A stretch of DNA of 12,715 nucleotides. It comes from Dehalococcoidales bacterium. GTDB taxonomy: Bacteria; Chloroflexota; Dehalococcoidia; Dehalococcoidales; UBA2162. The notes beneath the pieces are model-generated. The model worked only from the letters and a program-made list of their open reading frames with translations, made no database searches and was not told the origin of the DNA. The position numbers and the translations under genes are program-made. The DNA is taken from NCBI GenBank assembly GCA_016932435.1, contig JAFGCW010000037.1, positions 1-12,715 on the forward strand. Direction: 5' to 3'. This document shows, in pieces, positions 1 to 12,715 of this stretch; position 1 is the first letter of the stretch, and each line of letters opens with the position of its first letter.

Positions 1-66
1 CTCAAGTGCGTGATTTACGAAAGCGCAGAGAAGATAGGTCAGGTAGGAGACTGGAAAGACCTCTAG
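1..66 (+). CDS. C-terminal end of an unidentified protein (5' end outside window)
   Basis: The first frame is open from base 1 to a TAG at 64-66 and encodes 21 residues ending in QVGDWKDL. The peptide has ordinary composition. The stop lies 41 bases before a strong intrinsic terminator pointing the same way, which is what the end of a transcription unit should look like. The other open plus frame (from base 3 to TAA at 174-176) runs straight through the terminator and gives a very basic, unnatural peptide, so it was not chosen. I do not recognise the family from so short a tail. The gene is convergent with the redox operon, so it need not be related to it. Confidence 0.45.
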   Translation, partial: LKCVIYESAEKIGQVGDWKDL

Positions 67-107: not shown

Positions 108-145
108 AGGAGGAATGTTGAACTAACATTCCTCCTAAACTTTTT
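108..145 (+). terminator. Rho-independent terminator of the left-edge gene
   Basis: A perfect 12-bp stem (AGGAGGAATGTT at 108-119 with its complement at 125-136) closes a 5-base loop and is followed by AAACTTTTT. The T-run is on the plus-strand 3' side only. Read on the minus strand, the hairpin is not followed directly by a U-tract, so it probably does not serve the operon arriving from the right. Confidence 0.88.
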
Positions 146-201: not shown

Positions 202-3200
202 CTAATCCTCGTCTCTTTCTTCTTTATCGCAGCGGAGGCATCGGTTCGCCTCTTCTATAGCATCCTCTCTCGAATAGCAGGCTTCGACTTCAGCAAAGCT
301 TTTAATCCGTTGGGAAACAGGCAATATGGTAATATCCGGGCGGCGTTGCTCCTCTGCTTCTTCAAGTAGCGGCAGTTCCTTTTCCGGCGGAGTGAGTGTC
401 TGATCGATCTCTCCATTCCCACCGAGATATTTGTCAATCGAGACTGCCGCCTGTCTTCCATGGGCAATCGCTTCGATAACGGAAGCCGGTCCGCTAACGA
501 CATCACCGCCGGCGTAAATGCCTTTTTTACCAGTAGCCAATGTGTACTCATCGACAACAACAGTATTCCCCTGACCGACCGGCAGATCGAACTGTTCCGG
601 GATCTCCGGCTGCTGACCAATAGCCTCGATGATATTATCGAAAATCATCTTGAATTCACTTCCCTCTATCGGTTCAGGTCGTCTACGACCGCTGGAGTCT
701 ATAGTACCCAATTGCATACGGATACATTCGACTTCCAGTGTATCGTCTGCCTTCGATATCCGGACAGGATTAACCAGGTATTCGATTTTAATCCCTTCGT
801 CAATAGTCTGGACAACCTCCTCAAAGCTGGCCGGCATTTCTTCTGCCGTTCTCCTGTAAAGAATCGTTACTTCTTCAGCACCGAGTCGCAGTGCAGAACG
901 GGCAGAGTCTATAGCGGCGTTACCACCGCCGCATACAGCCACCCTTTTACCTATATTTTTCGACTTACCAAGACTGATATCACGGAGGAACGTGACACAA
1001 TCCTCAACTCCGGGGTTATCTTCACCTTCGATTCCCAATTTGGTTCCCTGGTGAGTACCGATAGCTACGAATACAGCATCGAATCCCTCCTCCAGCAAAC
1101 TCTCGGGAGAGGTAACCGTAGTATCGGTTTTTATAGTGACACCAAGGTCTTCAATTTCTTTAATCTCATTTTTGAGAATATCCTTTGGTAATCTATAATC
1201 CGGGATACCAACCCTCATCATTCCTCCGGCTTCCGGTAGAGCTTCGAACACTGTGACGTTATGACCCAGTACCTTCAGGAAATACGCGGCTGTAAGTCCA
1301 CTCGGACCGGAACCTATCACTGCAACACTCTTACCTGATGACGGCGCTATGGTAAGGTTCTGTTTCCACATATCACCGCCGTTTTCGCTCGCATACCGTT
1401 TCAGCATTCTAATAGCTATAGCCTCATCAAGTTGACCGCGGCGGCACTTCGACTCACAGGGATGGAAGCAAACCAGACCGCAGACAGACGGGAATGGTAT
1501 CTTCTCTCTAATCACCGCCAGTGATGCATCGAAATTACCATCGGCTATAAAACGAATGTAGCGTGGTACATCAATACCAGCCGGGCAGGTGTGGCTGCAG
1601 GGAGAGCTGACAATACTCTGGCAAACAGCTGCTTCACAGTGATGCCATTTAATGTGGTCTTCATATTCATTAAGAAAGTACTGTAAGGTAGTCAGCACAG
1701 GATTGGGGGCTGTCTGACCTAATTGACACAGCGAACCGGCCTTGACCTGCAGACAAAGATCTCTCAGAATCTCTATATCTTCCATCTTACCTCTGCCGGC
1801 ACAGATATTCTCCAGTATGGTAAGCATTTGTTTCGTTCCCAGGCGGCACATTACGCATTTGCCACATGATTCATCCTGAGTGAACGACAGGAAATATCGG
1901 GCAATCTCTACCATACAGATGTCTTCATCCATGACCACCATACCGCCGGAACCAACGATAGCCCCGGCTTGTACCAGTGTTTCATAATCGACAGGAAGAT
2001 TAAGATGTGTTACGGGAAGACAACCACCGGACGGGCCGCCGGTCTGTACTGCCTTGAACTTTTTACCGTCCGGAATTCCACCGCCAATGTCATAAATTAT
2101 GTCATACAGTTGAGTCCCCATGGGGATTTCAACCAGTCCGCTGTTGGCTATCTTCCCGGTCAAAGCAAAAACGGTAGTGCCTTTACTCTTTTCGGTACCG
2201 ATTTGAGAGTACCAGTCAGCACCTTTAGAGATGATAACCGGAATTGAAGCAAGAGACTTGACGTTGTTGATATTGCTAGGCTTGCCCCAGAGACCTGATT
2301 GAGCCGGGAATGGAGGACGTGGCCTTGGCATACCCCGCCTGCCCTCTATAGATGCCATTAAAGCGGTTTCTTCTCCGCAAACGAAAGCGCCAGCTCCTTC
2401 TTTAATGTGTATTTTAAAACTGAAATCAGAGCCCATCAGGTTATCACCGAGTAGCCCTTTTTCTTCAGCCTGCTTAACGGCAATGCGTACTCGTTTGACA
2501 GCCAGCGGATATTCGGCCCGGATGTAAATATACCCTTCCGAAGCGCCTATTGCATAGGCGGCGATAGTCATACCCTCGATAACGGTGTAAGGATCCCCTT
2601 CCATGATGCTGCGGTCCATGAACGCACCGGGATCACCCTCATCGGCATTGCATATCATGTATTTCTGGTCGCCCTCCGATTGACGGCATAGCTGCCATTT
2701 CGTACCTGTAGAAAAACCGGCACCACCCCGACCACGCAATCCTGATTGTTTCACCTCATCTATCACCTCGTCCGGTGTCATCTCGAACAGGCATATTTTC
2801 AAAGCTTCAAAGCCATCGGCGGCTATATAATCTTCAATTCTTTCAGGATTGATATGACCACAGTTCCTGAGTATTAAACGCTGCTGTTTCTTATAGAAGT
2901 TCACATCCTCGTAATACTGGATTCCTTCACCGGTAACCGGGTCCTTGTAGAATAACCGTGAAACCGGTTTGCCGTCCCTGAGGTGTGATTCAGCAATTTC
3001 TTCAACGTCTTCTACTGTAACGTGGGTGTAGAATACTCCCTCGGGCTCAACAACCGCAATCGGTCCTTGCTGGCAGAAACCATGACATCCGGTGAAATCG
3101 ACATCTACATCCGTTAATCCGAGTTCGGCTACTTTTTTCTCCATAGCCTCCCGTATTTCGAAGGCTTTACCCGAAACGCAACCGGTACCATGGCAGAATT

Positions 3201-3243
3201 TTATAGTCAGACGGCTATTCGGTGCTTTCTCTTTTTCTATCAC
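202..3243 (-). CDS. nuoF: NuoF/HydB-type NADH:FMN subunit fused to a GltD/NfnB-like NADPH:FAD domain
   Basis: This is a flavin and iron-sulfur subunit of a soluble NAD(P)-linked complex, 1013 residues from the GTG at 3243. Numbering below is from that start. An N-terminal thioredoxin-like [2Fe-2S] domain has Cys17, 22, 53 and 57. The NuoF core holds the FMN/NADH motifs RGRGGAGF (about 170) and CNADEGDPGAF (about 198), and its [4Fe-4S] ligands are Cys460, 463, 466 and 506. The HydB linker CEAAVC (536-541) then passes directly into a GltD-type two-cluster domain, SSPCSHTCPAGIDVP and VCGLVCFHPCESKC (Cys549-600). Next come an FAD Rossmann fold GSGPSG (644-649), an NADPH fold CGGGNAA (771-777) with YRRT (796), the second FAD motif GGDV (about 913) and a terminal CLRC. 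Plain NuoF is about 430 residues and HydB about 600; GltD is about 450-480. The gene overlaps nuoE by 29 bases. No clear terminator is visible downstream. The domain calls are firm; the role as an electron-bifurcating or transhydrogenase subunit is inference. Confidence 0.92.
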   Translation of the reverse strand: MIEKEKAPNSRLTIKFCHGTGCVSGKAFEIREAMEKKVAELGLTDVDVDFTGCHGFCQQGPIAVVEPEGVFYTHVTVEDVEEIAESHLRDGKPVSRLFYKDPVTGEGIQYYEDVNFYKKQQRLILRNCGHINPERIEDYIAADGFEALKICLFEMTPDEVIDEVKQSGLRGRGGAGFSTGTKWQLCRQSEGDQKYMICNADEGDPGAFMDRSIMEGDPYTVIEGMTIAAYAIGASEGYIYIRAEYPLAVKRVRIAVKQAEEKGLLGDNLMGSDFSFKIHIKEGAGAFVCGEETALMASIEGRRGMPRPRPPFPAQSGLWGKPSNINNVKSLASIPVIISKGADWYSQIGTEKSKGTTVFALTGKIANSGLVEIPMGTQLYDIIYDIGGGIPDGKKFKAVQTGGPSGGCLPVTHLNLPVDYETLVQAGAIVGSGGMVVMDEDICMVEIARYFLSFTQDESCGKCVMCRLGTKQMLTILENICAGRGKMEDIEILRDLCLQVKAGSLCQLGQTAPNPVLTTLQYFLNEYEDHIKWHHCEAAVCQSIVSSPCSHTCPAGIDVPRYIRFIADGNFDASLAVIREKIPFPSVCGLVCFHPCESKCRRGQLDEAIAIRMLKRYASENGGDMWKQNLTIAPSSGKSVAVIGSGPSGLTAAYFLKVLGHNVTVFEALPEAGGMMRVGIPDYRLPKDILKNEIKEIEDLGVTIKTDTTVTSPESLLEEGFDAVFVAIGTHQGTKLGIEGEDNPGVEDCVTFLRDISLGKSKNIGKRVAVCGGGNAAIDSARSALRLGAEEVTILYRRTAEEMPASFEEVVQTIDEGIKIEYLVNPVRISKADDTLEVECIRMQLGTIDSSGRRRPEPIEGSEFKMIFDNIIEAIGQQPEIPEQFDLPVGQGNTVVVDEYTLATGKKGIYAGGDVVSGPASVIEAIAHGRQAAVSIDKYLGGNGEIDQTLTPPEKELPLLEEAEEQRRPDITILPVSQRIKSFAEVEACYSREDAIEEANRCLRCDKEERDED

Positions 3244-3700
3244 TGAAAATCTCCCCAACTTTTTTTGTGGTCATTTGCCCGTGCACATCGATATTAATCG
3301 TAAGATTAGGAGCTAATGCGCAAGCGCCAATACAGGCAACGGTCTCCAGAGAATACTCCATATCTTCGGTGGTTTCTCCAGGTTTAATCCCGAGTTGCCG
3401 TTCGACTTCTTTCAGTATCCTTGTTCCACCCCGGACGTGGCAGGCCGTCCCCCGGCAAACCGAAACGGTCGTTCTACCTGAAGGTACACGCTTGAACTGG
3501 GCGTAAAACGTAGCTACTCCGAGTACTACTCCCGGAGAGATGCCAAGAAAACTGGCTATCTTCTGCATTGCTTCAGGAGGTAGGTACCCCAGTGCTTCCT
3601 GTGTTTCCTGTAGAATAGGTATCAGATCATCTCTCTGAGCCGCAGTATGGTTCGCAAGAACCTTTTCCATGGTATCTTTGATCTCACATTCACATGTCAT
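3215..3700 (-). CDS. nuoE: NuoE-like [2Fe-2S] subunit (24-kDa type)
   Basis: The protein has 161 residues, typical for NuoE/HndA/HydC-type subunits, which relay electrons next to the FMN-bearing NuoF subunit. The N-terminal helical half carries the family pattern around LIPILQETQEALGYLP and LGISPGVVLGVATFYAQF. The thioredoxin-like half holds the four cluster ligands Cys82, Cys87 (CRGTACHVRG), Cys123 and Cys127 (CIGAC). The start is ATG at 3700, with GGAG 8 bases upstream. It lies 91 bases after the molybdopterin subunit gene and overlaps the start of nuoF, so the three form one operon. A cytoplasmic location is expected, since there is no signal peptide or membrane segment. Nothing in it is unusual. 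The name nuoE follows the family; no membrane Complex I subunits are present in the window. Confidence 0.93.
   Translation of the reverse strand: MTCECEIKDTMEKVLANHTAAQRDDLIPILQETQEALGYLPPEAMQKIASFLGISPGVVLGVATFYAQFKRVPSGRTTVSVCRGTACHVRGGTRILKEVERQLGIKPGETTEDMEYSLETVACIGACALAPNLTINIDVHGQMTTKKVGEIFSDRKRESTE
3251..3256 (-). promoter_or_regulatory. Ribosome binding site that fixes the nuoF start at GTG 3243
   Basis: GGGGAG lies 7 bases before the GTG at 3243-3241, an ideal spacing. The longer reading from TTG at 3258 overlaps this site and has only an A-run before it. The GTG start removes five residues and places the first residues directly before the conserved [2Fe-2S] domain. The site lies inside the end of nuoE, which suggests translational coupling. 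Confidence 0.75.
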
Positions 3701-3791
3701 TTGTTTTTCTCCATCCCAAGCTGTAATAATATGGCTATAAATTCACTATCGATAACAGACATTACAAATTCTAATCAGCCGGTCATGTATG

Positions 3792-6464
3792 TTACGTATT
3801 ATTTTTTTCAATTCTAATACTGCACGGAGTATATTTCGGCAGTTTGAAAACAGGATCAATATCCGGATCATTTAGTAAACCAGTCTGAGTATTGACCAGC
3901 GGGAATACCATGAAGGCAGTGCCCTTTGGCAGACCTTCGGTTATCTTTGCCTTCGCTGCTACCTCACCATGCTGGGAAATAATCTTTACACTCTCACCCT
4001 CTTCGATTTGCAGCAAGCTGGCATCCTCAGGATTTATCTCCACTGTTTCCTCACCCCGAAGCATGACGAGACCATCAACTTTCCTCGCCAGTGTCCCGGT
4101 CTGGGAGTAAAACAAACTCCGTCCCAGGATGAGAGCCAGTGGGTAATTGTCATCTGACGGTTTCCCGGATGGCTTATACTCCAGAGGGATAAACCGTCCC
4201 TTTCCTTCACCGAATGCTTCACTATACAAGACCGGTGTACCTTCGCTTTGTTTGTCAGGGCAGGGCCACTGTAAACCGGCATCTTCCAGGCGATCGTATG
4301 AAATACCACCGTATATCGGTGTAAGACTGGCAACCTCCGTCATAATATTGGAAGGAGTATTAAATGCGAAACCTTCTTTACCCATCTTCTGAGCAAGTTG
4401 ACAGATGATTTTCCAGTCATGCCAGGAGTCACCGGCAGAATCGACGGCTTTTCTTACCCTCTGTATCCTGCGCTCGGTATTGGTAAAGGTACCTTCTTTT
4501 TCAGCGAAGGTTGTTGCCGGCAGTACAACATGAGCCAATTCGGCTGTTTCTGTCAGGAAGACGTCCTGGACTACCAGAAATTCCAGAGCTCCCAATGATT
4601 TTTTTATCCTGTCAGTATCCAGTTCGCCCAGCACCGGATTGCTTCCGATGATATATAATGCTTTGATCTCTTTCTTGCTTGCAGCATCGAGTATCTCGGT
4701 AAAATTCAATCCTTGCGAGGAATTAAGAGAACATCCCCAGGTGGATTCGAATTTTTCTTTTACCGAAGCATCACTTACGGATTGGTAACCGGGATAATAG
4801 TCAGGCAATGCTCCCATATCACACGCACCCTGAGCGTTATTCTGAGCAACCAGAGGACATATACCGGATGAAACCTTTCCAATATTACCGGTAAGCATTG
4901 CCAGGTTAGCGACAGCACTTACTCCATCAGTACCATTCCCACTCCTGACAAAGTCCGTTCCATAGAGAATAGTAGCAGGACTGCTTGTAGCGTATATTGT
5001 AGCTGCTTCAGATATTTTTTCCACGGACACACCGGTAATTTCTTCGATGTCATTCAGAGAAATGACTTCGAGTGATTTCTTAAAAGTGTCGAAGTCTTTA
5101 CACTGCTTCTCAATGTAATCTGAATCGAGAAGCCCTTCATCAACGATAGCCTTCATCATTCCTATGAGTAATGCTACTTCTGTCCCCGGCTCGATTTGCA
5201 GCCATAAGCCGGCAAAACGATTCAGGTCGATGTCTCGTGGGCTGACAACGATAAGTTTTGCTCCATTACGTACCGCATTTTTCACCTTAAGACCGATTAT
5301 GGGATGAGTTACTGTCAGGTCGATATCAAGAACTAAAATGCCGCTTGCTTTGCTAATCTCTTCTATCGAATTAGTCATCGCCCCGATGCCAAAGCTGTTA
5401 GCGAGACCTTCAAAGCTGGGCAATAATGATAAACGGGCTGAATTATCGATATTATTGGTACCCAGTGCGACTCTGGCGAATTTCTGGGTAACATACGTAT
5501 CTTCATTCGTGCATTTAGCTGAAGCAATCACTGCTATCTCATCCGGTTTATAACTGCTGAATTTACCGGCGACAAGGTCGATCACTTCATCCCAGCTTGC
5601 TTTATCCATTTCCCCATCTTTCTTTATCAGGGGGGAAGTCAGCCGTTCAATGTTATGGAGAAATCCCGGAATGCCGAATCGGCCTTTTACACAAAGACTT
5701 CCGTTATTTACCGAATCCTCTTTTTTACCATGGGCAGTGACCACTTCAGTCTGGCGAATGCCTAGATTTATACTGCAACCTACTCCGCAATAAGGACATA
5801 CCGACTCGACTTCTCTCCCTGCTTTTCTGGTCTCTTTAGGATGGAGAGTATATACCGGACAATGGTCCAGACATTCACCGCACGATTCACAGTTCGATTC
5901 TATTAATAGACCGTCCATTCCAGCGCTGACCCTGGCTTGATAACCACGATTGGTTAAATTAACTGCATTGACACCGCGGATCTCATCGCACGCACGAACG
6001 CACTTACCACAGAGAATGCAATAATTTCGGTCGATATTGAAAAAAGGATTACTTTTATCGATCGGCAGGTCTTTGGTCATGGTCTGAAAACGTGCCTTGG
6101 CAGCATCGAGAAGAGCCTCCATCATCTGAAGTTCACACTGCTGATTCTTGGGACAGGCATCACAATCAGTTGGATGGTCACTTCTTATCAACTGGATAGC
6201 AGTACGGCGTATATCATTAATTTCCGGAGAATCCGTGTGCACTACCATACCCTCGGTAGCCGGTGTAGTACAGGAAGTAGGAAAGCCGCGAGTTCCCTCA
6301 ATTTGTACGACACAAAGGCGGCAAGCTCCGTATGGTTTCAGGTCAGGATCGGAACACAGCGTAGGTATAAAAAAGCCATTCTCTTCCGCTACCTCAAGCA
6401 CGGTCATCCCTTCCGTTGCTTCAATCTCTTCTCCATCGATAGTCAGTTTGATTGTATTATCCAA
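3792..6464 (-). CDS. NuoG/formate dehydrogenase alpha-like molybdopterin subunit with altered active site
   Basis: This 890-residue iron-sulfur molybdopterin protein has the domain order of NAD(P)-linked formate dehydrogenase alpha chains and NuoG. It starts with a [2Fe-2S] ferredoxin domain (Cys37, 48, 51, 65) and a His-Cys [4Fe-4S] site (His97, Cys101, 104, 110). A two-cluster ferredoxin domain follows (Cys149-159 and 192-202), then the molybdopterin-family [4Fe-4S] site (Cys223, 226, 230, 258) with Lys260. The cofactor-binding body runs to the end (NNAQGACDMGALPD at 542, GSNP at 607, VLPATTFAEKEGTFTN at 647). Aligned by eye to E. coli FDH-H, catalytic Sec140-His141 become Ser346-Leu347 (NNIDNSARLSLLPSFEGL), and Arg333 becomes Val539 (GICPLVAQNNAQG). 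Formate oxidation is therefore unlikely. The start is TTG at 6464, with AGGAG 8 bases before it. There is no Tat signal, so it is cytoplasmic. Automated pipelines would probably call it formate dehydrogenase alpha. It may be a structural electron conduit or act on another substrate. Confidence 0.9.
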   Translation of the reverse strand: MDNTIKLTIDGEEIEATEGMTVLEVAEENGFFIPTLCSDPDLKPYGACRLCVVQIEGTRGFPTSCTTPATEGMVVHTDSPEINDIRRTAIQLIRSDHPTDCDACPKNQQCELQMMEALLDAAKARFQTMTKDLPIDKSNPFFNIDRNYCILCGKCVRACDEIRGVNAVNLTNRGYQARVSAGMDGLLIESNCESCGECLDHCPVYTLHPKETRKAGREVESVCPYCGVGCSINLGIRQTEVVTAHGKKEDSVNNGSLCVKGRFGIPGFLHNIERLTSPLIKKDGEMDKASWDEVIDLVAGKFSSYKPDEIAVIASAKCTNEDTYVTQKFARVALGTNNIDNSARLSLLPSFEGLANSFGIGAMTNSIEEISKASGILVLDIDLTVTHPIIGLKVKNAVRNGAKLIVVSPRDIDLNRFAGLWLQIEPGTEVALLIGMMKAIVDEGLLDSDYIEKQCKDFDTFKKSLEVISLNDIEEITGVSVEKISEAATIYATSSPATILYGTDFVRSGNGTDGVSAVANLAMLTGNIGKVSSGICPLVAQNNAQGACDMGALPDYYPGYQSVSDASVKEKFESTWGCSLNSSQGLNFTEILDAASKKEIKALYIIGSNPVLGELDTDRIKKSLGALEFLVVQDVFLTETAELAHVVLPATTFAEKEGTFTNTERRIQRVRKAVDSAGDSWHDWKIICQLAQKMGKEGFAFNTPSNIMTEVASLTPIYGGISYDRLEDAGLQWPCPDKQSEGTPVLYSEAFGEGKGRFIPLEYKPSGKPSDDNYPLALILGRSLFYSQTGTLARKVDGLVMLRGEETVEINPEDASLLQIEEGESVKIISQHGEVAAKAKITEGLPKGTAFMVFPLVNTQTGLLNDPDIDPVFKLPKYTPCSIRIEKNNT

Positions 6465-7558: not shown

Positions 7559-8926
7559 ATGGACACAAGAAGGTTTTTCCTTGAACAGAAGGATATGCCT
7601 ACACAGTGGTATAACGTCCAGGCTGACCTGCCTGAACCGCTGCCGCCGATGCTGCATCCGATGACAAAGGAGCCCCTGACCCCACCTGACCTGGCACCCC
7701 TCTTCCCGATGGAACTTATCATGCAGGAAGTCAGCCAGGAACGCTACATAGATATTCCGGAAGAAGTCCAGGATATCTTAGCCACATGGAGACCGACCGT
7801 ACTCCACCGTGCCTACAACCTTGAAAAGGCGCTGGATACACCGGCCAAGATTTTTTATAAATACGAGGGAACAAGCCAGGCAGGCAGTCATAAACCGAAT
7901 ACAGCCGTAGCCCAGGCATATTATAACAAGAAAGAGGGCATCAAACGCCTTACCACCGAGACAGGAGCCGGACAGTGGGGAAGTTCCCTGTCATTCGGCT
8001 GCAAGCTCTTCGACCTTGAACTCAAAGTTTACATGGTCAAAGTTAGTTATAACCAGAAACCCTACCGCAGAATGATGATGGAGACCTGGGGCGCTACCTG
8101 CGTCCCCAGCCCCAGCCCGGATACAAAAGCCGGACGTGATATGCTTGCCCAGGACCCGGACTGCCCCGGCAGTCTCGGACTGGCCATCAGCGAAGCTGTC
8201 GAAGACTGCATGATGAGAGATGATACTCACTATTCACTTGGCAGCGTAGTCAGCCATGTTCTGCTGCACCAGACCGTAATCGGTCAGGAAGCAATGAAGC
8301 AAATGGAGATGGCCGGATACTACCCGGATATCATCATCGGTTGCGTAGGCGGCGGTTCGAACTTCGCCGGTATGTTCCTGCCATTCGTTAAAGACAAAAT
8401 CAAAGGCAGCAAACCTGACCTGCGTATCATTAATGTCGAACCGGAAAGCTGTCCTACCCTTACAAAGGGACTTTACGCTTATGACTTTGGTGATGTTGCC
8501 GGAATGGCGCCTATCGCGAAGATGTTCACTCTCGGCCACACCTTCATGCCGCCGCCGGTACATGCCGGAGGTCTGAGATATCATGGTATGGCCCCGCTTA
8601 TCTGTCACCTTCATAAACTTGGATATGTTGAAGCAACTGCCGTTCCTCAGATAGCGACCTTCGAAGCCGGTATACAGTTCGCCAGGACCGAGGGTATCAT
8701 AAGCGCGCCGGAAACCAACCACGCGATAAGGGTTACTATCGACGAAGCCCTGAAATGCAAAGAAACCGGTGAGTCAAAAGTAATTCTCCTGGCTCACAGC
8801 GGTCATGGTCATTTCGATATGGCGGCCTATGAAGCGTATCTCGGAGGAAAACTCACGGATTATGCTTATCCCGAAGAGAAAGTGAAAGAAGCCCTGTTAA
8901 CCTTACCCGAGATACCCGGGCAATAA
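7559..8926 (+). CDS. trpB: Tryptophan synthase beta chain, TrpB2 type
   Basis: This PLP enzyme condenses indole with serine to give tryptophan. The 455 residues and the long N-terminal extension with KDMPTQWYN (11-19) mark the TrpB2 branch; TrpB1 is about 400 residues. The PLP lysine is Lys112 in [16 protein letters not shown] (134-141) contains the family's catalytic Glu region, GGGSN (264-268) is the phosphate-binding loop, and SGHGHFD (414-420) is the TrpB2-type C-terminal motif. The start is ATG at 7559, with AAGGAGG ending 4 bases before it. No trpA or other trp gene is adjacent. TrpB2 enzymes often act without tight TrpA binding, and some have been proposed to salvage indole or serve other roles. 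The tryptophan-specific T-box directly upstream argues that this copy makes tryptophan. It is a single-gene transcript with its own terminator. Confidence 0.95.
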
Positions 8927-9077: not shown

Positions 9078-10187
9078 ATGAAAAGAATTGCATATTTAAT
9101 AATAACTCAGTTGCTTCTTTTATCACTGGTCTTGGGTACCGGTTGCTCGATTATAGCAAGCGAGGTTGCAGAGGAAGAAACCTCATCCACCGAAAACACC
9201 ACCGGTGCCAAAACCGAACCGGTAGTTATCCCTACTTCATCACAACTGCAGGCACTACCAAGTATTGCTGATGTCGTAGCCCTCGTTAAGCCATCAGTTG
9301 TCGCAATCAACACCGAAATTACGATAACGGATTTCTTCGACCGTCAAAGCACCCAGGAAGCAGCCGGCTCCGGCTGGATAATATCCGAAGACGGTTTTAT
9401 CGTCACCAATAACCATGTTGTCGCAGACGCTGAGACTATCACCGTTGTACTCGACGACGGTCGGGTATTTGATGCTGAAATAGTAGGCACCGATCCCCTA
9501 TCCGATCTTGCCGTTATCAAGATAAATGCTGAAAACTTACCTGCCGCGCAGGTAGGTGATTCATCGCGACTGAGAATCGGTGACTGGGTAGTAGCGATCG
9601 GTAATTCACTGGGACTGGGGATCAGGGCTACCCAGGGAATAATCAGCAGGACAGACGTTTCTCTCCAGATAGACGCTAACCAGGTATTATACGGCCTGGT
9701 CGAGACAGACGCAGCTATCAATCCCGGCAACAGCGGCGGTCCGCTGGTAAACCTGGCGGGGGAAGTCATCGGTATTAACAGTGTCAAGCAGGTCCAGGTT
9801 GAGGTTGAAGGCGTCGGCTACGCGATCAGCACTGAGGAAGCTGTCCCGATTATCGAGCAACTGATCAACTACGGAGAAGCTTCCCATCCGTATCTCGGCG
9901 TCAGTCTTTATCCGGTCGACCAGTACGTAATATCAAACTTCGGCCTGACGATCGATCACGGAGTGTTTGTAGTAACCGTTGGAGATAACAGCCCGGCAGA
10001 TGAAGCAGGACTCCAACCGGAGGACGTGATACTGCGTTTTAACGGCCAGGAAATAGAGACAATGGACGACCTTGTTATCGGTATTCGCTCCGCCGAAATC
10101 GGCGAAGAAGTAGAGATCATTTACTGGCGTAACGATAAAGAAAATACTACCACCGCCACACTTATAAAAAGACCGACTTTGCCTTAA
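9078..10187 (+). CDS. htrA: HtrA/DegP-like serine protease with one PDZ domain
   Basis: This is a 369-residue envelope protease that degrades or processes misfolded exported proteins. The N-terminus is a signal sequence (basic MKR, hydrophobic core to about residue 20). It ends in GTGC with Cys23, a lipobox-like site whose -3 residue is Gly rather than Leu, so lipidation is possible but uncertain. A Thr/Ser/Glu-rich linker (about 27-55) precedes the trypsin-like domain. The catalytic triad is complete: His113 (TNNHVV), Asp143 (LSDLAV) and Ser219 (NPGNSGGP). One PDZ domain covers about residues 270-365 (from YLGVSL). Its short length and single PDZ match DegS- or YkdA-type members rather than two-PDZ DegP. 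The start ATG at 9078 has only a weak GAAGAAG before it. The gene stands alone, and its stop overlaps that of convergent ileS. Confidence 0.94.
   Translation: MKRIAYLIITQLLLLSLVLGTGCSIIASEVAEEETSSTENTTGAKTEPVVIPTSSQLQALPSIADVVALVKPSVVAINTEITITDFFDRQSTQEAAGSGWIISEDGFIVTNNHVVADAETITVVLDDGRVFDAEIVGTDPLSDLAVIKINAENLPAAQVGDSSRLRIGDWVVAIGNSLGLGIRATQGIISRTDVSLQIDANQVLYGLVETDAAINPGNSGGPLVNLAGEVIGINSVKQVQVEVEGVGYAISTEEAVPIIEQLINYGEASHPYLGVSLYPVDQYVISNFGLTIDHGVFVVTVGDNSPADEAGLQPEDVILRFNGQEIETMDDLVIGIRSAEIGEEVEIIYWRNDKENTTTATLIKRPTLP
10184..10187. other. Overlapping convergent stop codons
   Basis: The tetramer TTAA holds the TAA of htrA (10185-10187, plus) and the TAA of ileS (10184-10186, minus). No hairpin terminator is visible between the two genes, so their transcripts probably overlap at the 3' ends. 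Confidence 0.95.
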
Positions 10188-12715
10188 TCGACTTTCTTCA
10201 CACCGAGTAACACTTCATGGCCACTCAACTTGAATGTTTCCTGGTAATCGACTCCGTCAGGCAAGCCTTCTGTCAATTGTTGTGAAAGCGTTTCCTGTTT
10301 AATGTAGCCTGCGGTCGTATCTGCAGTCATTACCCCACGGACATATTCATCGGCGTCATAGTATGTTTCAATATGATCGGCAATATCGAATCCGGCCGAT
10401 CGACGCATAGTCTGCAATCGATGAACGATTTCACGGGCCATTCCCTCTGCTTCAAGTTCCGGTGTTAATTCTGTATATATTGCTGAATTAACATTTCCTT
10501 CGGCTACAACGATATAATTCTCCCGACCTTCGAGTTCTTCTATTTCCTTGAAGGATCTTACTTCCACCGACTTCACGTTCAACTCATCGAGGACCATCTG
10601 CATTATAGATTCACTCTCAAGAGCACGTTTTTCTCGATCGGTTCCTACACCTACATAATTGACCGACAGTGGCTGTCTGACCTTGATACCAGCTTTGCTT
10701 CTGGCTGCCCGACCAAGGCTGGAGACCTTCATTGCCAGTTTGTTAGCTTCCGAAAGCTGAGCATCTATCTTGCTCTCATCGGCCACAGGGAAATCAGCCA
10801 GGTGAACGCTTTCAGGGTTATCTCCTCCAGGTGAACCTGCCAGGTTCCGGTATAACTCTTCGGCAAGGAAAGGAGTAAACGGAGCCATAAGCTTGGTCAG
10901 TGTTATGAGACATTCATAAAGAGTATTGTACGCCGATAGTTTATCGGTATCATTCTCACTCTTCCAGAACCTTCTCCTGCTTCTGCGGACATACCAGTTT
11001 GAGAGCTCATCGATAAATTCCGCTATCTGCCAGGCTCCGGTACGTGGATCATAGTTTTCCAGGGCATTATCAACATCCAGGATCAGCTGGTTCAGTCCCG
11101 ACAGTATCCACCTGTCGAGTTCAGATTGAGTTTCTCCTGTTTCCTTCTGACCGGGAACATACTCATCGATATTGGCATAGGTAACGAAAAATGAATATAC
11201 ATTCCAGAGAGTCATAAAAACACGTCGAGATATTTCGGCTATCGCCTTTTCATCGAAACGCATCGAACTTCCCATCGGAACTGCTGTGTAAATATACCAC
11301 CTAAGTGCATCAGCACCATACTTGTCCAGCATGTCCTGGAGACTGACCACGTTACCCTTGGTCTTACTCATTTTCTGGCCTTTGGGATCCTGTATATGAC
11401 CGTGGCATATTACGTTTCTGTATGAAGGCTGATCGAAAAGCAGCGTCGATATGGCGTGAAGGCTGTAGAACCAGCCACGAGTCTGGTCAATTGCTTCACA
11501 GATAAAATCAGCCGGAAATCCGCCGTCTTCAAGTAACGTCTGGTTCTCGAAAGGGTAATGCGACTGTGCAATAGGCATGGCGCCTGAATCGAACCAGCAA
11601 TCGATTACTTCCGGCACCCGTTTCATGGTACCGCCGCATTCCGGACAGCTGAACGTGATTTCATCTACGAAGGGCCGGTGCATATCAAGCGGTTCTTCGA
11701 ATTCGTTTACTCCGGGACGATTCTTCAGGTCCTCGACACCACCGATACACTCCATTGCATTGCAGGAAGGGTGAGTACACTTCCAGACCGGCAACGGCGT
11801 TCCCCAGTACCGTTCTCTCGACAGAGCCCAATCGACATTGTTTTCAAGCCAGTCCCCAAATCGACCGAATTGTATATAATCCGGATACCATTTGATCTCT
11901 TTATTGCCTGATATCAGACTTTCTTTTACTTCAGTGGTTTTTATGTACCACGTCTGTTTGGCATAGTAAAGTAGAGGTGAATCGCATCTCCAGCAAAATG
12001 GATAAGTATGTTTGATCGTTTCCACCCGGTAGACAAGCCCTTTCTTTTTAAGGTATTCCAGAATTAGCGGATCGGCTTCCTTGACGAACTTACCTCCGCC
12101 CGGGATGTCTGTCATCGACATGGACGGCATAAGCGAGACCGGAGTTGTTCCACCTCTGCTTTTCTGTGCGTATTCCCTGGCACTCGGCGTCGAACTGATT
12201 ACCATACCGGTAGTAATCGTTCCATCCAGGTTTACCGTATTTACCAGGGGGAGGTTCTCTTTCTCACCTACCTCATAGTCGATTTCTCCGTATGCAGGTG
12301 CGATATGAACGATTCCGGTACCGTCATCCATCGATACGAAATCGCCGGCAACGATACGATAAGCCTTCACATCATCCGGGGCATACTGGATATTTATCTC
12401 GAATAACGGTGTGTAATGTATCCCTACCAGTTCTTCACCCTGCAATTTCTCTACGATCTTATACTCATCGTTAACCGATACTCCCAGTAATGAAGAAGCC
12501 ATGATAAGGTATTCGTTTTCCAGTTCAGCTACGGCATACTCCGCGTCAGGAGCTACCACCAGGGCTACATTACCCGGCAGCGTCCAGGGAGTAGTCGTCC
12601 AGGCAAGGAAATAGGCCGGCTTATCTGTCGATCCAAGTAATTCGGCAAGCCTGCTTTCTCCAAGCGATGATTGCACGACTTTAAACTTTATGTAAATCGA
12701 TGGATCTTCGGTATC
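10184..12715 (-). CDS. ileS: Isoleucyl-tRNA synthetase, type 2 (N-terminus outside window)
   Basis: IleS charges tRNA-Ile with isoleucine in the cytoplasm. The frame stays open to the right edge; the extra residues read DTEDPSIYIKFKV, the usual entry to the editing domain. The GTG at 12676 is therefore not the start, and 843 codons are visible. The HIGH motif lies beyond the edge. The CP1 editing domain shows WTTTPWTLPGN and GTGIVHIAPAYGEIDY. Then come RERYWGTPLPVW, a Cys-rich likely zinc site (CTHPSC with SCPECGG) and CWFDSGAMP. The second signature is KMSKT (11360-11374), one change from KMSKS. The anticodon-binding domain contains NWYVRRSRRRFW. These motifs match the eukaryote-like IleS2 class, in which mupirocin tolerance is common. 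The C-terminus lacks the zinc finger seen in E. coli IleS. IleS2 assignment is by motif recognition. Confidence 0.96.
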   Translation of the reverse strand, partial: DTEDPSIYIKFKVVQSSLGESRLAELLGSTDKPAYFLAWTTTPWTLPGNVALVVAPDAEYAVAELENEYLIMASSLLGVSVNDEYKIVEKLQGEELVGIHYTPLFEINIQYAPDDVKAYRIVAGDFVSMDDGTGIVHIAPAYGEIDYEVGEKENLPLVNTVNLDGTITTGMVISSTPSAREYAQKSRGGTTPVSLMPSMSMTDIPGGGKFVKEADPLILEYLKKKGLVYRVETIKHTYPFCWRCDSPLLYYAKQTWYIKTTEVKESLISGNKEIKWYPDYIQFGRFGDWLENNVDWALSRERYWGTPLPVWKCTHPSCNAMECIGGVEDLKNRPGVNEFEEPLDMHRPFVDEITFSCPECGGTMKRVPEVIDCWFDSGAMPIAQSHYPFENQTLLEDGGFPADFICEAIDQTRGWFYSLHAISTLLFDQPSYRNVICHGHIQDPKGQKMSKTKGNVVSLQDMLDKYGADALRWYIYTAVPMGSSMRFDEKAIAEISRRVFMTLWNVYSFFVTYANIDEYVPGQKETGETQSELDRWILSGLNQLILDVDNALENYDPRTGAWQIAEFIDELSNWYVRRSRRRFWKSENDTDKLSAYNTLYECLITLTKLMAPFTPFLAEELYRNLAGSPGGDNPESVHLADFPVADESKIDAQLSEANKLAMKVSSLGRAARSKAGIKVRQPLSVNYVGVGTDREKRALESESIMQMVLDELNVKSVEVRSFKEIEELEGRENYIVVAEGNVNSAIYTELTPELEAEGMAREIVHRLQTMRRSAGFDIADHIETYYDADEYVRGVMTADTTAGYIKQETLSQQLTEGLPDGVDYQETFKLSGHEVLLGVKKVD

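Follow-up and report, generated by a model that had tools for sequence, protein, structure and literature searches.

Three uninterrupted open reading frames (ORFs) lie in a row on the minus strand of the window, by which we mean the whole analyzed stretch of 12,715 nucleotides. Gene 1 (3792..6464) encodes an FDH-alpha/NuoG-like subunit of 890 amino acids, recognized from the ORF, Pfam, TIGR01591, and a structure model with a fold match to formate dehydrogenases (FDHs). Gene 2 (3215..3700) encodes a NuoE-like [2Fe-2S] subunit of 161 amino acids with Cys 82, 87, 123, and 127. Gene 3 (202..3258), whose start overlaps the end of the NuoE gene, encodes a NuoF-GltD fusion of 1018 amino acids (ORF, Pfam, model, fold match). 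Start codons follow the ORF-tool listing and are putative, with TTG for genes 1 and 3. ORFs and Pfam thus confirm the layout of NuoE, NuoF-GltD, and FDH-like/NuoG subunits that an earlier note on this DNA had described.

The three genes form a closed operon. It ends after the fusion, since a hairpin (108..136, no strand assigned; terminator-like on the plus strand, with a similar form in locus L150) and the end of a convergent gene (1..66, plus strand) come next. L150 belongs to a Dehalococcoidia metagenome-assembled genome, G001, with which 8,997 bases including the operon align at 85.9%; identity is 93% for the fusion and 86% for the FDH-like protein. From this likeness, the window probably originates in Dehalococcoidia. 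In L150, a homologue of the convergent gene follows the operon; the protein encoded there matched no Pfam family. As the earlier note had it, there is no H-cluster or membrane subunit by Pfam among the three operon genes, and a comparison of the flanks of the window and L150 found no partner genes of the window type.

Elsewhere in the window, a T-box leader (RF00230; 7153-7462, plus strand; 78.6 bits, E 3.5e-17, below the gathering score of 93) precedes a gene for a TrpB-like PLP enzyme (7559-8926). An HtrA-like protease is encoded at 9078-10187 (plus strand), and a long ORF at 10184-12676 (minus strand) reads, by eye, like isoleucyl-tRNA synthetase.

The fusion joins a HydB/NuoF half to a GltD half. 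Residues 1-540 (1639..3258, minus strand) carry a thioredoxin-like [2Fe-2S] domain, an FMN/NAD(H) domain, SLBB, and a [4Fe-4S] site; residues 541-1018 (202..1638, minus strand) carry two [4Fe-4S] clusters, FAD, and an NADP(H) motif. The Pfam order is PF01257, PF01512, SLBB (PF10531; 24.9 bits, below the cut-off of 27), and PF10589, then PF14691 and Pyr_redox_2; past residue 541 there are only PF14691 (Fer4_20) and FAD/NAD(P) domains. We take PF01512, PF10589, and PF10531 to be the InterPro entries for the FMN-binding, NuoF 4Fe-4S, and SLBB domains of the BfuB definition. The NuoE ORF matches PF01257 and scores above the cut-off of NF005722. The fusion has at least 120 homologues, each spanning 96-100% of the query among the matches listed, and matches covering both halves occur in 82 of the 393 genomes of class Dehalococcoidia. 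Thus, the fusion is no assembly accident. Nor is it the new layout that had been proposed: it is common in Dehalococcoidia, and the accessible text of PMC11406978 describes a NuoF-GltD fusion in [FeFe]-hydrogenases of Hydrogenedentota, as BfuB sub-type I.

The NuoF half resembles bifurcating enzymes. Its best sequence match is HydB of a bifurcating [NiFe]-hydrogenase (7t2r_B, 803 bits). The ligands of the bifurcation-specific B2 cluster given in the available part of PMC9304861 (C438, C476, H525, C531, and C536) align with window C448, C486, H535, C541, and C546, whose codons lie within 1621..1917 on the minus strand (alignment with 7t2r_B, conservation). C448, H535, C541, and C546 are present in 106/106 fusions examined by class; residue 486 is either Cys or, more often, Thr, which is found in most classes other than that of the window. 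The same source, as far as available, reports Cys/Thr variation at this position for BfuB in general. We rejected Cys486 as a mark of the window class, since Cys is found there in 50 of the 101 other database fusions P0020-P0120. Also present are the ligands of B1 and B5 and, in NuoE, those of C1. As read from these domains and ligands, a bifurcation-type HydBC core (FMN domain, B1, B2 including its His, B5, and C1) is retained.

The GltD half, an FAD/NADPH module, occupies the place of the ferredoxin-like domain of HydB and StnB. The usual ferredoxin site is therefore missing, and ferredoxin would need another entry route. The operon had been said to supply the parts needed to link NADH, NADPH, and ferredoxin; the parts list stands, but the HydB/StnB site for ferredoxin has given way to GltD. 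We also looked at a circular permutation of GltD relative to NfnB and put no weight on it, because the matching piece alone (GltD-half residues 440-471 against 4ylf_B 13-43) scores 12 bits (E 0.71).

The loss of formate chemistry in the FDH-like subunit is well supported by alignment. Pfam matches Fer2_4, NADH-G_4Fe-4S_3, Fer4_7, Molybdop_Fe4S4, Molybdopterin, and Molydop_binding, so that the full molybdopterin domain noted earlier is present, and the score against TIGR01591 (Fdh-alpha) is 729.7 bits for a cut-off of 666.25. The cofactor sites comprise a [2Fe-2S], a His-ligated [4Fe-4S], two ferredoxin-like [4Fe-4S], the FDH [4Fe-4S], and the molybdopterin fold; the structure model matches the FDH fold, with low confidence for the Fe-S residues 126-212. 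The catalytic trio Sec/Cys-His-Arg is replaced by S346 and L347 (codons at 5424..5429, minus strand) and V539 (4848..4850, minus strand; coordinates computed from the ORF). As a statement about sequence, "inactive FDH" is therefore accurate. Several such inactive proteins bear the source name "formate dehydrogenase alpha"; this warns that, if our reading is right, the annotation cannot hold for many proteins that carry it in these genomes.

The window subunit belongs to a clade of 28 rows in which the Fe-S sites are strictly kept. All 20 ligands of the A1-A5 wire are present in 28/28 rows, as are Lys260 and the [4Fe-4S] ligands. A serine metal ligand is known in DMSO reductase, and the whole molybdopterin fold persists; the subunit might then still be a Mo/W enzyme, with Ser346 ligating the metal as in DMSO reductases and a new substrate. 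We regard this as very improbable. In the clade, Ser, Tyr, His, or Gly fills the catalytic Sec/Cys position, which weakens Ser346 as a new metal ligand, and of the 18 C-terminal pterin-domain columns that are invariant in active FDHs, a mean of 62% is kept. The loss of the entire trio might instead suggest decaying or mis-assembled genes without function, but this is scarcely credible given the open frames in both the window and L150, dN/dS values of 0.05-0.16, and a 28-row clade that keeps every Fe-S ligand. Cluster N7 of bacterial NuoG is a precedent for Fe-S ligands kept for structure, and all 20 ligands here could likewise be structural only.

The window clade (SH-aLRT 100) is nested among active FDHs, a placement that recurs under a mixture model. 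The FDH tree holds 97 of 122 collected rows, and the mixture-model tree and approximately unbiased (AU) test 46; row collection excluded database proteins shorter than 840 amino acids and three of four Cys-His-Arg ones. The basal row, P0150, has kept the Cys and lost the His and Arg, as in an intermediate. For several neighboring active FDHs, the gene follows those of NuoE and NuoF-GltD; other FDHs (e.g., L014, L015, and L020) are paired with unfused NuoF. The most direct reading of the trees is that the window unit derives from an NAD(P)-linked FDH that lost its active site. A phylogeny of the fusion returns the window fusions as one clade and places it among fusions paired with active FDHs. 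That database fusions P0001-P0019 pair with inactive FDHs is taken from tree position, not from seen loci; for P0007/P0127 and P0016/P0147, it is also taken from the equal size of the source contigs.

We found a window-type unit in 1/393 genomes of the class and 1/156 of the order, and scans of the family, order, and class found no inactive-type homologue above 60% identity beyond G001. Only two loci of this type are readable in context, the window and L001/L150.

FDH-like subunits with part of the trio occur in L157 (4922-7606 and 2113-4917), L158, L159, P0150, P0201, and P0230. In L157, a Cys-Ala-Phe copy lies beside a Sec-His-Arg copy; other part trios read Cys-Val-Arg, Cys-Asp-Arg, Cys-Gln-Trp, and Cys-His-Ser. 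These are possibly intermediates or sequence errors. Another NuoF-GltD fusion in G001 (L277, contig C89) has a downstream FDH-like gene that reads Gly-Arg-Ser at the trio, and it lies close to a Sec-type FDH and an 842-amino-acid GltD protein.

NuoF-GltD serves as a shared module. It is found with active FDHs, [FeFe]-hydrogenases, [NiFe]-hydrogenases, and FDH-like lineages without an active site. Our census covers 118 fusion places, including three duplicates (L001/L150, L002/L152, and L004/L155). An active FDH lies downstream in 21 (19 distinct), MetV in 38, and a NuoG-like gene of ~640 amino acids in 21 (L247 and L115 by partial matches); three (two distinct) are of the window type. Two have an FDH-like gene upstream without room for MetV, three have part of the trio (CAF, CVR, and CDR), and one reads GRS. 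Among the remaining 29, which are unassigned, six have an [FeFe]-hydrogenase motif, confirmed by Pfam in one. The class order placed MetV first; where an FDH-like gene lay downstream, MetV was never within 4.5 kb. The genome search proposed earlier for the three-gene layout recovers the window type in G001; elsewhere, NuoE and NuoF-GltD also pair with active FDHs.

Most of the ~640-amino-acid NuoG-like genes precede genes clustering with HoxY- and HoxH-like proteins. These loci look like a [NiFe]-hydrogenase with a GltD-fused diaphorase, in the order NuoE, NuoF-GltD, the NuoG-like gene where assigned, then HoxY- and HoxH-like genes (L185, L239, L240, L243, L244, L246, L249, L251-L254, L257-L259, L261, L262, L264-L268, and L271). 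The basis of this reading is two ORF clusters, with 23 and 20 loci, and the Pfam matches of one representative from each.

A separate FDH-like lineage without an active site precedes MetV in the 38 MetV loci, in the order FDH-like, NuoE, NuoF-GltD, MetV, and MetF. MetF follows MetV in 37/38; the FDH-like gene is seen upstream in 34/38, and the other four begin at most 955 bases from the contig start. Where residues could be read at the catalytic places (31 loci), Cys/Sec or His occurs in none and Arg in one. The representative proteins of L005 match PF12225 (MetV) and PF02219 (MetF), and MetV relatives in the class at 63% identity or more are mostly at these loci. In this lineage, it is apparently MetV-MetF that the FDH-like arm serves, and not ferredoxin. 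The operons are candidate electron-input complexes for methylene-THF reductase (L005 3840-11691, L021, L151, L168-L170, L172-L174, L176-L180, L183, L187, L219-L233 in part, L236-L238, L241, L242, L248, L270, and L274). They would offer a concrete candidate electron donor of this enzyme in uncultured Chloroflexota, a question treated as open in the available part of PMC5736913 (low-potential acceptor, "could be NADP or Fd"). In the openly licensed PMC texts covered, we found no account of an inactive FDH, or of MetV-MetF, combined with NuoF-GltD.

Immediately upstream, the MetV-type operon is repeatedly preceded by genes that resemble response regulators and sensor kinases (L005, L151, L169, L172, and others). 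Their clusters hold 15 and 13 loci and were annotated by eye.

The MetV lineage raises the question of whether the window unit, too, is the electron-input module of an enzyme encoded elsewhere, such as methylene-THF reductase, with the FDH-like subunit as a docking hub passing on electrons from NADH and NADPH. G001 holds the window type (L150) and the MetV type (L151) together, and the third terminus is an enzyme in every class of NuoE/NuoF-GltD module with a known partner. Nevertheless, we find this rather unlikely: neither MetV-MetF nor another enzyme is encoded in the window operon or within ~6 kb behind it in L150, and by the trees the two lineages appear to have lost the active site separately. 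A single origin of all FDH-like subunits without an active site is disfavored (AU p 0.0125, in a test with short-search trees, a group defined once the first tree was known, and the other long-branched row, L181, excluded).

We favor a free-standing complex for the window unit. The interpretation in the earlier note is partly supported: the transhydrogenase that it proposes is one of several outcomes of the shared module, because related units pair with active FDHs, with hydrogenases, or with an inactive FDH and MetV-MetF. On balance, and by a narrow measure, we expect that the three subunits form a soluble complex that links NADH and NADPH to a third carrier. This carrier would be diffusible, would reach the complex by way of the Fe-S wire in the FDH-like subunit, and is most probably ferredoxin: with no partner enzyme in the operon, that is the most economical choice. 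Electrons would pass between NAD(H) and NADP(H) in this flavin/Fe-S complex, the NuoF half binding NAD(H) at its FMN and the GltD half binding NADP(H) at its FAD. One arm would run FMN - C1/B2 - GltD clusters - FAD - NADP(H), and the other FMN - B1 - A1...A5 - carrier. Conformational gating of the HydBC core would couple the exchange energetically, so that NADH and reduced ferredoxin yield NADPH, or the reverse. The forward direction would be favorable at the potentials in the accessible Table 1 of PMC9304861 (NADH -280, NADPH -380, ferredoxin -500 mV). The ancestor of the complex would be an NAD(P)-linked formate dehydrogenase, in which loss of the formate site freed the arm for another partner.

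Bifurcation and ferredoxin use by the window unit are our inference. The core may have lost bifurcation, since its B3/B4 domain is gone and, in the available text of PMC11406978, the HydABC of Syntrophomonas wolfei, with a HydB lacking B3 and B4, did not bifurcate. The missing HydB ferredoxin domain and this report on Syntrophomonas wolfei would also suit a non-bifurcating NADH/NADPH oxidoreductase that has no third carrier and in which the FDH-like subunit is a structural remnant. NuoG of complex I is an example of an FDH fold that persists without a catalytic role. Against this, the B2 ligands are all kept, His included, and so is the complete wire in every row of the clade; we consider such an enzyme unlikely.

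More broadly, two Dehalococcoidia-type lineages may each have retired an FDH on a NuoE and NuoF-GltD core and reused its Fe-S arm. One would have become a free-standing NADH/NADPH/ferredoxin transhydrogenase of reversed Stn topology, with NADPH on the ferredoxin branch, and the other the electron input of MetVF; in both, NADP(H) would sit at the place of ferredoxin in HydABC-type enzymes. We offer this combined account tentatively, as possible but doubtful in full. If true, an Stn-like transhydrogenase could be built along a second and independent route, in which an enzyme is disabled instead of a domain being moved. It would also suggest that NADP(H) can serve HydABC-type cores in a role for which ferredoxin had been considered obligatory.

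Known systems share parts of this architecture. With the NAD(P)-linked Mo/W FDHs (FdsA and FdhF; 6tg9, 7qv7, and 1aa6), the window has the fold, the proximal [4Fe-4S], and the Fe-S wire in common, but where those enzymes have the catalytic Sec/Cys, His, and Arg, it has Ser, Leu, and Val. In SfrAB of Geobacter, a GltD-like chain works with an FDH/NuoG-like chain, as in the window, a likeness drawn by description. This NADPH-dependent Fe(III) reductase is named in the accessible text of PMC7483475. NfnAB has a PyrK-like NfnA beside NfnB; Pfam finds no NfnA among the three window operon genes. The MetV lineage has MetV and MetF behind NuoF-GltD, where the window has the convergent gene. Like that lineage, and unlike the window, Moorella-type MetVF complexes have an electron-input complex beside MetV-MetF; this is HdrABC-MvhD in the available portions of PMC5736913 and PMC7325909, and NuoE and NuoF-GltD with an FDH-like subunit (34 seen) in the 38 loci.

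The window unit also resembles the HydABC-type Bfu family, as defined in the available part of PMC9304861. FMN, B1, B2 with its His, B5, C1, and the A1-A5 ligands are common to both. The FMN-binding and NuoF 4Fe-4S domains are present, and the SLBB domain falls just under its cut-off; the B2 pattern Cys/Cys(Thr)/His/Cys/Cys is there, as are a BfuC-type NuoE with C1 (PF01257 and its four Cys) and a BfuA-type subunit with A1 and A2. The 4Fe-4S ferredoxin-type domain of BfuB (IPR017896, B3/B4) is absent. BfuB sub-type I, in the accessible text of PMC11406978, has the same replacement of this NuoF domain by DPD_II and an FAD/NAD(P) domain, but its third subunit is a catalytic [FeFe]-hydrogenase, whereas that of the window is an FDH homologue without an active site.

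The window topology is that of Stn turned round, as its domain order reads. In StnABC of Sporomusa ovata, GltD resides with NuoG in one chain, StnC (PMC7483475 and PMC10482914, in the parts available), and StnB has a ferredoxin-like C-terminal domain; in the window, GltD is on the NuoF chain, which is without such a domain. The earlier note had drawn this contrast, and it holds. Compared with both StnABC and the NfnABC of Thermococcus sibiricus and Caldicellulosiruptor, the window GltD, fused to NuoF, replaces its ferredoxin domain, and a full-length FDH homologue takes the place of a GltD-NuoG chain as third subunit. Features of Stn-type GltD are nonetheless present, namely K620 near the FAD-side cluster and the C-terminal Cys pair C1007 and C1010 (StnC numbering counted by hand on the alignment). 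The window unit is best placed as a variant of HydABC/Stn-type machinery, with the MetV-MetF operons as a second, and perhaps more important, lead.
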